Source: Chroococcidiopsidaceae cyanobacterium CP_BM_ER_R8_30 (GTDB lineage: Bacteria > Cyanobacteriota > Cyanobacteriia > Cyanobacteriales > Chroococcidiopsidaceae). From it: a stretch of DNA of 36,168 nt. Positions 16,486 through 19,548 of this stretch are shown in pieces. Both the position numbers and the translations under genes were made by a program. Position 1 is the stretch's first letter, and each line of letters begins with the position of its first letter. The stretch is taken from positions 1 through 36,168 of the forward strand of contig JAFASY010000067.1 of NCBI GenBank assembly GCA_019244235.1. The letters are read 5' to 3'. The notes below the pieces were generated by a model. The model searched no databases, was not told where the DNA came from, and saw nothing but the letters and a program-made list of their open reading frames with translations.

Positions 16486-17952
16486 CTAACAATGATGCAA
16501 CTTGGTCAACAAAAATACAATTTCATCGAGTGCCTGTCTGAGAGTGGCGGCAGATTGATCGGATTGATTGACTATCATACTAAATACAAGTGGTTCATAG
16601 TTGGGAGTATTAAGATACCCCGATATGGCAGCAACCCCGCTCATCGAGCCCGTCTTAGCTTGGAGAATACCTTGAGCAGCTGTGTCGCGGAAACGACTTT
16701 TGAGGGTACCGCTCATGCCAGCTACTGGTAAAGAAGCTCGATAGAATGCTGCCTCTGGAGATTGCGCCATTGCCCTCAGAGTTTGTACAAGCGCTTCAGG
16801 GCTGACTAAGTTATGACGAGATAGTCCTGATCCATCTGTAAGCACATAGCTAGTTGGGTCAACTCCCAACTCGGTCAATGTTGCACCGACTACGCGCAAA
16901 CCGACTTCCTCTGTTGACTCTATAGTAGATGTGCTGCCGACTTGAGCCCCAAGTGTTCGCAGCAAAGCCTCAGCATAAAGATTATTGCTGTTCTGATTTG
17001 TCTCTACCAACAGCTGAGACAATCGCGGTGATTCAACAGATGCTAATTCTCGCCCAGTAGATGAGCGGAGTGAAGAGGGGCTAGCAACCATTGCCTGTTT
17101 TGTCACAATCTGCTGCGCTGCTAGGGCAGCACGGAAGTGTTGCAAAAAGTGCTCTGCGGGGTCAAGGACAGCTAAACTCACAACTTCAGGATCAGAATGA
17201 ATACTTAGCTGTCCTTCTAGGAACAACGTTGGCTTTCCTAGGTTGCGGTCAACATTGATGAATGTTGGTACATCTGGCTTAACTGCGATCGCTTGCTCTT
17301 CAATCTGCCATTGCCTTGCTTCAGTCGGATCGTCCCAGACGGTTCGCAGTGGTTGCCCCAGGGTTTGAGGGAATAACGTCAATGTCACTGCATTTTGATT
17401 CAAAATCAAACTATTGACTGGTGCTCCATAATCTGCTAGGGCATCTTCCAATTCCCAACTGGGGTCAATAGCTGTACCTCGAAAATAATTATCCTCGGCG
17501 ATGAGTTGGCTTACCTGATGGATACCTTGATGGCTGAGCTGCTGCGCCAATTCCGTCAGTTCGGTATCTGTCAAGCTGGGATCTCCCCGTCCCACAACTC
17601 GTAAAGAACTGCCACCATTGTCATAAACAGAAGTACGAATCCGAAACTGGGGACCTAGATGATGTAAGGCAGCAGCTGTCGTAAGTAGCTTGGCATTGGA
17701 AGCCGGGACAAAGTACTGTTGGGCATCATGGCTGTAGATAGTTAAAGCGGGAGATAACGTCTGGATTAAAATGCCCCAACGCGATCGACGTAGCTGCGGA
17801 CGAGCTACGATGGCTTCAATTCCCGCACTTATTTGAGCTGGGCAGACAACTTCAGACGCTTTGGCTGCTCTAATGGTCAAGCAGAAGCAGAGGCTAGATG
17901 AGTAGGTTAGTAGCAGAACTGCCCTCAAGGAGAGATGTCTCGAAAACCTCAT
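16486..17952 (-). CDS. dacB: D-alanyl-D-alanine carboxypeptidase/endopeptidase, PBP4 type (peptidase S13)
   Basis: A periplasmic low-molecular-weight penicillin-binding protein that trims or cuts peptidoglycan cross-links. The 488 residues start with a signal peptide (basic MRFSRHLSLR, hydrophobic core to about residue 25, likely cleavage near 31). The three serine-acyltransferase motifs are all present: SNAK (Ser 85, Lys 88), SNN (322-324) and KTG (433-435). Between the first two lies the long insertion typical of the S13 family, and DGSGLSRHNLVS precedes the KTG motif. The start lies 3 bases after the stop of the Dam-like gene, so the two are probably cotranscribed, an odd partnership. Confidence 0.94.
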   Translation of the reverse strand: MRFSRHLSLRAVLLLTYSSSLCFCLTIRAAKASEVVCPAQISAGIEAIVARPQLRRSRWGILIQTLSPALTIYSHDAQQYFVPASNAKLLTTAAALHHLGPQFRIRTSVYDNGGSSLRVVGRGDPSLTDTELTELAQQLSHQGIHQVSQLIAEDNYFRGTAIDPSWELEDALADYGAPVNSLILNQNAVTLTLFPQTLGQPLRTVWDDPTEARQWQIEEQAIAVKPDVPTFINVDRNLGKPTLFLEGQLSIHSDPEVVSLAVLDPAEHFLQHFRAALAAQQIVTKQAMVASPSSLRSSTGRELASVESPRLSQLLVETNQNSNNLYAEALLRTLGAQVGSTSTIESTEEVGLRVVGATLTELGVDPTSYVLTDGSGLSRHNLVSPEALVQTLRAMAQSPEAAFYRASLPVAGMSGTLKSRFRDTAAQGILQAKTGSMSGVAAISGYLNTPNYEPLVFSMIVNQSDQSAATLRQALDEIVFLLTKLHHC

Positions 17953-17955
17953 TAG

Positions 17956-18774
17956 TCAAGATTTCGCTCTTGGACTACTAACACTGCCAATGGTGCCAAA
18001 AACCTGCTGAAATCGTTCAATGTTCTGACCCAGATAAAAGATGGCATTACCCTGCTTAGGTCGAGGCTGTGGTTGACCTTGGGCATCAAGAAACGCAATC
18101 GGCTCATCAGGGAAACACACTGGAAATGAGCGAGTGAGCTTTTGAAACCACTTACTACCAACTGCTGGTCTTACTAGTATCATGGCTTCTAAGACTCGCC
18201 CAGATTCATACTCAGTTAGAGCCTTGTCGATCCACTTAACTACCTTACCATGAGTTGGTGGGTGTAACCAAACTTGTCCGAACCAGGGCTCTCTAAGCCC
18301 ATCCTGCGCTTGATAGTAGTTGGTTGCTTGAACCCACTGTTGAGTAAATGCGTTGCTAACTGGGTCAAGGTCAATTTTCATAACCTGACGCACCAAGACA
18401 ATGATTTCTGGAGGTGTGTACCAATCTTGAACCTTTTTCTGGGTTAGTGTTTTTGAACTTTTAGCATTGCGCTGGAGTAAATCAATCTGCTTATTGATAG
18501 TTTTGATGCGTTTGTGCAATTGCTTGACGATTTTTCCTCGGGCGATCGCCGCCTCGGCATCGGCTAGTGCTGAGCCATGAACACTTAGGTACTCTGTCTT
18601 CTTACCATTGAACATTGGCTTTCTAGATTTGAGCCGGGGATACTTATGCTTCTTACTACCAGGTTTTGCCTTGGCGATCCAACAGTCGGTTAAGATTCTG
18701 CCCTCACTCTGGACGCTGGCTAACTTTGACTGGAGAGACAACAACTCAGCTTTTAAGTCCTCTAGCTTTGGCAT
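17956..18774 (-). CDS. Phage-type Dam-like DNA N6-adenine methyltransferase, atypical catalytic motif
   Basis: A protein of 272 residues in two parts. Residues 1-110 are basic with coiled-coil character, including a CWIAKAKPGSKKHKYPRLKS stretch and KIVKQLHKRIKTINKQIDLL, perhaps for DNA binding. From about 117 it resembles phage-type DNA N6-adenine methyltransferases (PF05869): DWYTPPEI, then IDLDPVSN, then NYYQAQDGL, EPWFGQVWL. Where that family has (N/D)PPY, this protein reads HPPT (171-174), so catalysis may be lost or altered. The start codon abuts a 13-bp inverted repeat. dacB follows 3 bases downstream. A phage or plasmid origin is plausible. The family call is good; activity is uncertain. 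Confidence 0.72.
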   Translation of the reverse strand: MPKLEDLKAELLSLQSKLASVQSEGRILTDCWIAKAKPGSKKHKYPRLKSRKPMFNGKKTEYLSVHGSALADAEAAIARGKIVKQLHKRIKTINKQIDLLQRNAKSSKTLTQKKVQDWYTPPEIIVLVRQVMKIDLDPVSNAFTQQWVQATNYYQAQDGLREPWFGQVWLHPPTHGKVVKWIDKALTEYESGRVLEAMILVRPAVGSKWFQKLTRSFPVCFPDEPIAFLDAQGQPQPRPKQGNAIFYLGQNIERFQQVFGTIGSVSSPRAKS

Positions 18775-18823
18775 GTTCGTATAGCAATCTCAGGAATATT
18801 CTACTATAATTTGCTATACGAAC
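18775..18823. promoter_or_regulatory. Perfect 13-bp inverted repeat around a TATAAT box
   Basis: GTTCGTATAGCAA (18775-18787) and TTGCTATACGAAC (18811-18823) are exact reverse complements with a 23-base AT-rich spacer. The left arm touches the ATG of the Dam-like gene. The spacer ends in TATAAT (18805-18810), a plus-strand -10 box, and read on the minus strand contains TATAGT and TAGAAT. It probably works as an operator for the divergent genes or, in the minus-strand transcript, as a hairpin ending at the start codon. Confidence 0.6.
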
Positions 18824-18945: not shown

Positions 18946-19194
18946 ATGACTGATAAGCAAAACTTTCTCTATCCTCGCTCGCGCTACTACGGGCAGGTGA
19001 AGCCAGAAAACCTGGTCTTTAATGCAAATTTGCAAGAGTTCTCGCAGCGCGTCAGCTATATTGTCAACCTGCAAACAGGCGGCAAGCTGTCCTCAGAGGA
19101 ATCGTACCAACAAATCGAAGCATCCTGGAAACAGCTTAAGAGAAGCAAAAGGCAGTTAGGAATTGGTCAACCACTAGGCTTAAGTCAGGAATGA
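18946..19194 (+). CDS. Small conserved cyanobacterial protein (DUF7219-like)
   Basis: An 82-residue soluble protein of a type I recall as widespread in cyanobacteria, with the opening DKQNFLYPRSRYYG, then NLVFNANLQEFSQRV and a Lys-rich helix WKQLKRSKRQLGIG. Its function is unknown. The frame is open back to 18811, but the start at 18946 is preferred because TAAGGGGG lies 6-13 bases upstream and the conserved region begins here. The next small gene begins 15 bases after its stop, so they may form an operon. Confidence 0.82.
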   Translation: MTDKQNFLYPRSRYYGQVKPENLVFNANLQEFSQRVSYIVNLQTGGKLSSEESYQQIEASWKQLKRSKRQLGIGQPLGLSQE

Positions 19195-19209: not shown

Positions 19210-19548
19210 ATGGTACAACTTAAACAGATAAAAACAGGATTAAAAGATTTAGATATTAAACCAGGTAACGTTGTTCGTCTCCTACAGCCTTTCAAACCAG
19301 AGCGGTTTAGCTCTAGAGAGTATACTTTTGCCATAGTGGCTGGAATAGTTGAAGATAACTCTAAAAGCAGCTCAAAGCAGCAATCTTGTTCAGGCTCCCA
19401 AATATCAACCCAAGAGCAGCCAAGCTGGCATGAGCTAGTTGTCTACCTATATGAACCCCATAGTTCAACCGTCTATACAGACGAATATAGCTCCGTAGCT
19501 TTATTTAGTTTCGACTTAAATGAAGTGGAGATATTACAAAGAGGATAA
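19210..19548 (+). CDS. Small protein of unknown function
   Basis: I do not recognise this 112-residue protein. It is a mixed beta-type sequence (KPGNVVRLLQPFKP, then EYTFAIVAGIVED, then ELVVYLYEP) with a Ser/Gln-rich linker (about 50-70). The spacing of beta strands looks like a small barrel, as in cyanobacterial conserved hypotheticals. No signal or membrane segment is visible. It follows the 82-residue gene by 15 bases and ends 6 bases from the end of the convergent EmrB-type gene. Confidence 0.7.
   Translation: MVQLKQIKTGLKDLDIKPGNVVRLLQPFKPERFSSREYTFAIVAGIVEDNSKSSSKQQSCSGSQISTQEQPSWHELVVYLYEPHSSTVYTDEYSSVALFSFDLNEVEILQRG

Follow-up and report, generated by a model that had tools for sequence, protein, structure and literature searches.

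Organization of the locus

The window analyzed here, the entire 36,168-nucleotide stretch of contig JAFASY010000067.1 from Chroococcidiopsidaceae cyanobacterium CP_BM_ER_R8_30, encodes on its minus strand a methyltransferase-like protein (P0001), whose gene is neighbored by DUF7219, PBP4-type and MFS genes (Table 1). Abutting this gene is an inverted repeat (18775-18823) whose arms, GTTCGTATAGCAA and TTGCTATACGAAC, are exact complements separated by 23 bases, with the last base of the left arm directly preceding the ATG. The first-pass annotation had described a perfect 13-bp inverted repeat touching the start codon of a Dam-like gene, with a 23-base spacer that ends in TATAAT and no Shine-Dalgarno sequence between the left arm and the ATG; the repeat and its spacer are exactly as described, and by eye no Shine-Dalgarno sequence is visible there.

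Judged on the window alone, this dyad is improbable to a modest degree only: in 150 order-1 Markov simulations, perfect repeats with arms of at least 13 bases and loops of 3-60 arose 0.027 times per simulated window, and a shorter set of 40 simulations gave 0.125. The dyad has the longest arms of any such repeat in the window, and what sets it well above chance is its conservation in homologues (see below). The runner-up, a perfect inverted repeat with 12-base arms (AAGGACAGCTAA/TTAGCTGTCCTT) and a 29-base loop (17164-17216), lies within the PBP4-type gene. Across the 5.5 Mb genome the exact arm occurs only at these two places of the dyad, and matches with up to two mismatches (97) are no commoner than those of the reversed control pattern (127), which rules out a MITE or other dispersed repeat. 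TTCGTATAGCA resembles part of loxP, which we take to be a coincidence.

Table 1. Features of the dyad and the flanking genes, in window coordinates
Feature	Position	Strand	Remarks
Gene for a 272-aa protein: N-terminal IS-accessory-type domain fused to a Dam/phrog_111-like methyltransferase domain	17956..18774	-	
HPPT (residues 171-174) at the catalytic motif position	18253..18264	-	alignment A5
N-domain (residues 1-105): helix, three beta strands, long helix	18460..18774	-	proposed dyad binder
Arm 1, GTTCGTATAGCAA	18775..18787		conserved in L010 and L011
Spacer, 23 bases, with -10-like boxes on both strands	18788..18810		diverged in homologues
TATAAT, possible -10 box towards the DUF7219 gene	18805..18810	+	within the spacer at all three loci; putative function
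Arm 2, TTGCTATACGAAC	18811..18823		between the -35 and -10 of the promoter predicted on the minus strand
Promoter-like match TTCACT-16-TATAGT for the methyltransferase-like gene	18830-18803	-	consensus match only; 0.5 expected by chance
Divergent gene, DUF7219 family	18946..19194	+	neighbor of the dyad at all three loci
Gene for a 112-aa protein of unknown family, third gene of the cassette	19210..19548	+	common to the three loci

Conservation of the dyad and its gene cassette

Searches for relatives of P0001 in 60 related genomes, in 291 from the order and in 386 from the phylum returned matches of any kind in 7 (own genome included), 24 and 10 of them, respectively. Close homologues among the genomes searched number two, L010 (genome G018, apparently the uncultured Aliterella MAG L016) and L011 (G006), each with 68% protein identity. 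Absence of the dyad upstream of close homologues had been named in the first-pass annotation as grounds for abandoning a regulatory role; it is present in both, directly before the ATG. The arms of the window match those of each homologue at 25 of 26 positions (left 13/13, right 12/13), the sole change, C to T, affecting the final base of the right arm and being common to L010 and L011 (13/13 identical to each other in this arm). GAACTACTTTCACT, which adjoins the arm, is likewise retained in both. The surroundings are far more diverged: the spacer, 23 bases in the window and 24 and 26 in the homologues, is identical to theirs at 17/24 and 14/26 positions, the 50 bases further upstream at 27/50 and 28/50, and silent sites of the gene differ at 64% (pS 0.64; dS ~1.4). 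The dN/dS of 0.15 from the same comparison points to purifying selection on both halves of the gene. With a dS of 0.10, L010 and L011 are themselves nearly the same, and this conservation therefore amounts to one deep comparison. An exact search of 388 genomes of the order for the paired 12-base arms recovered these three loci only.

The three loci share a cassette composed of the methyltransferase-like gene, the dyad, the divergent DUF7219 gene and the gene for the 112-aa protein; the PBP4-type and MFS neighbors seen in the window were not found in the compared 19 kb of G006 or 8.9 kb of G018. DUF7219 proteins are present in all 60 relatives and the dyad in just 3 of the 388 genomes, which rules out the dyad as a site of the DUF7219 gene as such and instead ties it to the methyltransferase-like gene. 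The 112-aa protein is restricted to 4 of the 60 relatives, namely the own genome, G006, G018 (where the match contains a stop) and G004, where it is represented by two fragments (L199, on G004:C24). The surroundings of these fragments contain neither an arm at up to 3 mismatches nor a match to the methyltransferase-like or DUF7219 proteins, and the fragments are possibly a relic.

A methyltransferase-like half with an altered catalytic motif

The C-terminal half of P0001 aligns with phrog_111 (E 1.1e-22) over the whole length of that family (alignment A5). It differs from the phrog_111/TIGR01712 enzymes in its fused N-domain, in its score of 25.2 bits against TIGR01712 (phage N-6-adenine methyltransferase), which is under the curated cut-off of 97.05, and in its catalytic motif; no Pfam family is matched by the window protein at E up to 1. 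N6-adenine methyltransferases have the catalytic motif (D/N)PP(Y/F/W), which neither the HPPT of the window protein nor the HPPA of L010 and L011 matches; among the other rows of A5, the first motif position is N in 20/20 and the entire motif is NPPY in 15/20. Given this replacement of NPPY by HPPT, the enzyme may be inactive, and the occurrence of HPPT/HPPA in a protein under purifying selection makes it possible that a methyltransferase was turned into a binding module. The structural model of this half (pLDDT 88.9) retrieved with Foldseek first CAPAM (E 1.4e-3, prob 1.00) and then RlmJ, both N6-adenine methyltransferases, with no match at E up to 0.001. Among defense-system models, the window protein gave only a weak match, to one for an orphan methyltransferase (E 0.0077). 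The label "Dam-like" is thus apt insofar as the C-terminal half is a relative of these enzymes, but the relationship is distant and the catalytic motif is changed.

A viral origin was also considered and rejected: scanning viral contigs by a pattern-limited search revealed no close relative, and phages displayed only methyltransferase-type matches with less than 60% identity and no match for an IS-type N-domain.

The N-terminal domain belongs to a family borne by insertion sequences

The N-domain, predicted with a pLDDT of 85.9 to adopt the fold given in Table 1, has no sequence match in Pfam, NCBIfam or the PDB above thresholds. Foldseek recovered no match to the fold at E up to 0.001, and the best hit of VIA-align against 997 chains (Z 7.5, a level that the notes of the method call common) is at noise level, an absence of matches that speaks neither for nor against a known fold. 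Used as a single query, the domain retrieves small proteins from 14 of 291 genomes at E up to 0.01 (per-genome E 1.6e-13 to 0.009), and a 13-sequence profile, applied with an E threshold of 1e-6, recovers it from 93 of 388 genomes, a count that includes the 13 seeds and for which 11 candidates per genome were scored. We compared profiles of three groups that share no sequence using hhalign: the window group matches the insertion sequence (IS) group at 96.9% (E 1.7e-10) and the group of L031 and L185 at 92.9% (E 3.6e-7), and the latter two match each other at 99.3% (E 4.8e-20). At the level of sequence profiles, these comparisons show that the window N-domain is homologous to accessory proteins of cyanobacterial IS elements.

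Identical copies within the same genome delimit mobile units of 1.8-2.2 kb in G081, G292, G281, G341 and G132, with partial units in G178 and G264. By eye, direct repeats flank the units of G081, G281, G341 and G132, and none are evident for G292. The transposases, all above NCBIfam cut-offs, belong to IS4 group 1 (G281), IS4 group 3 with Tn5-type domains (G341 and G132) and NF041680 (G292); no intact transposase is listed in the G081 unit. Elements carrying the accessory gene can number about ten or more near-identical copies in a single genome (L132-L135 in G081 and L136-L138 in G292). The window locus does not lie on a transposase-bearing IS, and its own genome features one copy of the gene plus a distant second N-domain relative (L195, G000:C315:21794-22078; E 1.7e-6). 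From this genomic context we regard the window protein as a host-borne relative of the IS accessory family.

Other members are found in further settings. The stand-alone N-domain genes L014 and L128, from two genomes of different families, lie by eye between CheB-like and CheR-like genes, and no transposase was recognized among the listed frames of L014, L128 and L185. L031, also stand-alone and with a split site of 47 bp, is flanked by a helicase-like gene and by one that is possibly McrC-like (by eye). In L096 (L096:1312-1590, G174), the N-domain forms the C-terminal end of a different protein with a methyltransferase-type-like frame (by eye). A 63-row full-length alignment (A3), in which N-domain rows were misaligned onto the methyltransferase, was set aside and the domains were modeled apart. 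In a tree of 72 domains, which has several long branches and an arbitrary root and in which the label "split" was assigned from the sites, the 12 rows with split sites, joined by L095 and L096, are set apart by a branch with support 100/99, and the trio of the window gene and its two orthologues joins L014, L025 and L128 (96/87).

A shared type of inverted site accompanies the N-terminal domain

At many members of the family we found inverted, facing copies of a half-site with the core [GA]TT[CA][GT]. The half-sites of the window dyad are symmetric at 8/8 positions, and the window has no other such site with a span of 20-54. On the mobile units, palindromes with the common core occur just inside the IS ends; they are perfect at both ends in 3 of the 5 units (ATTCGCGA..TCGCGAAT; TTAGCGTA..TACGCTAA; GGTTCGCGT..ACGCGAACC) and imperfect at both element ends in G281 and G132. 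Palindromes with the same core are also found around the accessory gene in many IS.

We collected 78 distinct N-domain genes and tested 76 of them, leaving out L096 and one gene with fewer than 120 upstream bases. Perfect repeats with arms of at least 9 bases are present within 130 bases upstream of 37/76 genes, against expectations of 2.0 (Markov) and 3.6 (1234 windows of the same loci). Facing half-sites with at least 7/8 symmetry are seen upstream of 43/76 genes versus 38/1234 control windows, a count that includes the orthologue trio (40/73 without it) and some near-copies, and that employs a core pattern read from the same sequences as were scored; the repeat test with arms of at least 9 is independent of that core. 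At the 7/8 threshold, 33 of the 76 genes are devoid of an upstream site. Sites with spans of 21-25 and at least 6/8 symmetry, which have a background of 0.026 per 140 bases, occur within 140 bases upstream of 42 genes, downstream of 53 and on both sides of 36 (of 76 in each case).

Facing half-sites with at least 7/8 symmetry are found upstream of 0/23 methyltransferase relatives that lack the N-domain, and 4 of these 23 have other repeats with arms of at least 9. The 23 remain from 26 loci tried, 3 having been excluded for a gene extending past the locus or for insufficient upstream sequence. A site belonging to the methyltransferase half is ruled out by this absence. The enrichment of facing half-sites at N-domain genes, together with their absence from the methyltransferase relatives without the domain, indicates that the site goes with the N-domain. 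The proposal of the first-pass annotation that a DNA-binding protein uses the site, with the N-terminal half of the gene's own product as a candidate, is strengthened accordingly.

There are two ARRANGEMENTS of sites. Sites of the IS class are compact, with 23 bp from GTTC to GAAC as the usual length, whereas in the stand-alone genes and the trio the arms are wide apart and near the ATG. Unlike the 23 bp of the IS class, the sites of the trio have spans of 49, 50 and 52; a 47-bp span with GTTAGTGG is seen in L031, L093 and L152, a span of 38 in L185 and L187, and in L032 the core is different and a loop of 58 bases separates arms of 12. The nearest relatives without a methyltransferase (L014, L025 and L128) have arms of the ATTCGTACGCA/TGCATACGAAT type near the ATG, which by their letters are clearly akin to GTTCGTATAGCAA and TTGCTATACGAAC. 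Variants of the site type among the family proteins comprise GTTCGTAT, GTTCGCGA, GTTCTCT, GTTAGTGG and GTTAGCGT.

The palindromes lie directly inward of the terminal repeats, in the area of action of transposases and their helpers, which raises the alternative that they are sites of the transposase and that the accessory gene merely adjoins them. We consider this decidedly unlikely, since elements with IS4 group 1, IS4 group 3 (Tn5-like) and NF041680 transposases share the core even though their terminal repeats differ, and the stand-alone genes L014, L128 and L185, with no transposase in the stretches read, also carry such sites. That the N-domain family rides on IS whose ends bear same-core palindromes might suggest that the window dyad is a terminal inverted repeat or the solo relic of a mobile element. 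This is the least probable of the readings that we weighed and is largely refuted by the orthologous position: the place before the ATG is kept in a second genus at a pS of 0.64 with differing flanks. Further, the arm has no other exact copy in the genome, and the IS palindromes sit inside the terminal repeats and are not themselves terminal repeats.

Promoter layout and a predicted autoregulatory operator

The only promoter-like match on the minus strand lies across the arms, so that one falls between its -35 and -10 and the other in the 5′ leader, where arm 1 is predicted to occupy the interval between a transcription start likely to be near 18796 and the ATG. The assignment is tentative, since the boxes of L011 have a different spacing (21 to the -10-like box, by eye). 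L185 displays the same plan, its left arm being enclosed by a full consensus promoter (TTGACA-17-TATAAT, by eye). Such a placement is in keeping with a repressor site.

This layout bears on the earlier suggestion that the minus-strand transcript folds into a hairpin ending at the start codon, which in its fuller form posits an RNA element, transcribed from upstream of 18823, that controls translation of a gene devoid of a Shine-Dalgarno sequence. The arm is flush with the ATG, and a 49-base RNA containing both arms folds with -16.6 kcal/mol (z -4.9), as any perfect repeat of this length would, but such a transcript needs a start further upstream. Because the sole promoter-like match lies across the arms with its -10 between them, the transcript it predicts would hold a single arm as an unstructured leader, and the hairpin is left unsupported. 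Moreover, the IS relatives have such sites at both ends and after the stop codon, with no common start codon following, and the C to T change in the right arm is uncompensated as a Watson-Crick pair, although a G-U pair would still form. We therefore deem an RNA element very improbable.

Instead, we predict that the dyad is probably an operator for the gene's own promoter, bound by the N-domain of the gene's own product. Under this model, the two inverted [GA]TT[CA][GT] half-sites would flank the -10 region of that promoter, and the N-terminal domain would bind both, with dimerization potentially mediated by its long helix. The bound protein would cover the -35/-10 spacer and the start region and thereby repress its own promoter. 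The divergent DUF7219 promoter would perhaps be repressed too, and control of this gene or operon by the putative operator is a possible extension of the model. A different host regulator could instead bind the dyad, with the N-domain doing something else, such as targeting the methyltransferase-like domain. In favor of such a regulator, binding by the N-domain is a property that we infer, and the methyltransferase-like half joined to the domain in the trio may require a domain that targets it. However, across several genera and three transposase models this type of site accompanies the domain, and it is missing where the domain is missing. The arm also has no second exact occurrence in the genome, so that a wider regulon is not visible at exact-match stringency. 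Overall, we hold a different regulator to be unlikely, if less so than the other alternatives considered above.

Returning to the predicted autoregulatory operator, its extension to the family as a whole is one that we posit more tentatively, as a scenario with somewhat less in its favor than against it. Here, the IS-borne family would bind matched sites both at its own promoter and at the ends of the elements, thereby controlling transposition; it would then have settled in the chromosome as stand-alone self-regulating factors; and at the window locus it would have been fused to a methyltransferase lacking the canonical motif to give rise to a new transcription factor, which may sense SAM or methylated DNA.

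Relationship to known regulatory systems and biological significance

Restriction-modification systems feature C-protein boxes, palindromic operators that precede a gene linked to DNA methylation, and in this respect they resemble the window locus. They differ in that the window locus has neither a detected HTH controller gene nor an adjacent restriction gene, and in that the proposed binder is the methyltransferase-like protein itself. The co-option of small transcription factors of mobile elements (Xre/HTH and antitoxin regulators) has been reviewed, and autoregulatory operators and co-opted mobile-element regulators are already known kinds (PMC8987985). The window system is like these in its inverted half-sites over the gene's own promoter and in the presence of the family in both elements and host chromosomes. 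It is set apart by an N-domain that matches no HTH or RHH profile, by the sites near the IS ends and by the methyltransferase-like fusion. The TldR proteins, relatives of TnpB that turned into RNA-guided transcription factors (PMC13418256), offer a parallel in the probable reuse of a transposon-linked accessory family as a regulator; they are unrelated proteins, and here the proposed recognition is of a DNA palindrome by a protein rather than RNA-guided. In the literature covered (titles and abstracts, with most subscription journals outside the coverage), we found no description of the family or its palindromes, of palindromes near the ends of several IS types or of a fusion to a methyltransferase with an altered motif.

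What began as one hairpin-like oddity thus leads to a protein-DNA pairing that is predicted to recur across the IS elements of cyanobacteria, which constitute a large part of many cyanobacterial genomes. The matched sites make the specificity of the domain directly testable, as they provide dozens of protein and site pairs with different letters. If confirmed, these would represent a new DNA-binding domain, a mode of self-control in insertion sequences and a traceable route from an IS to a host regulator.
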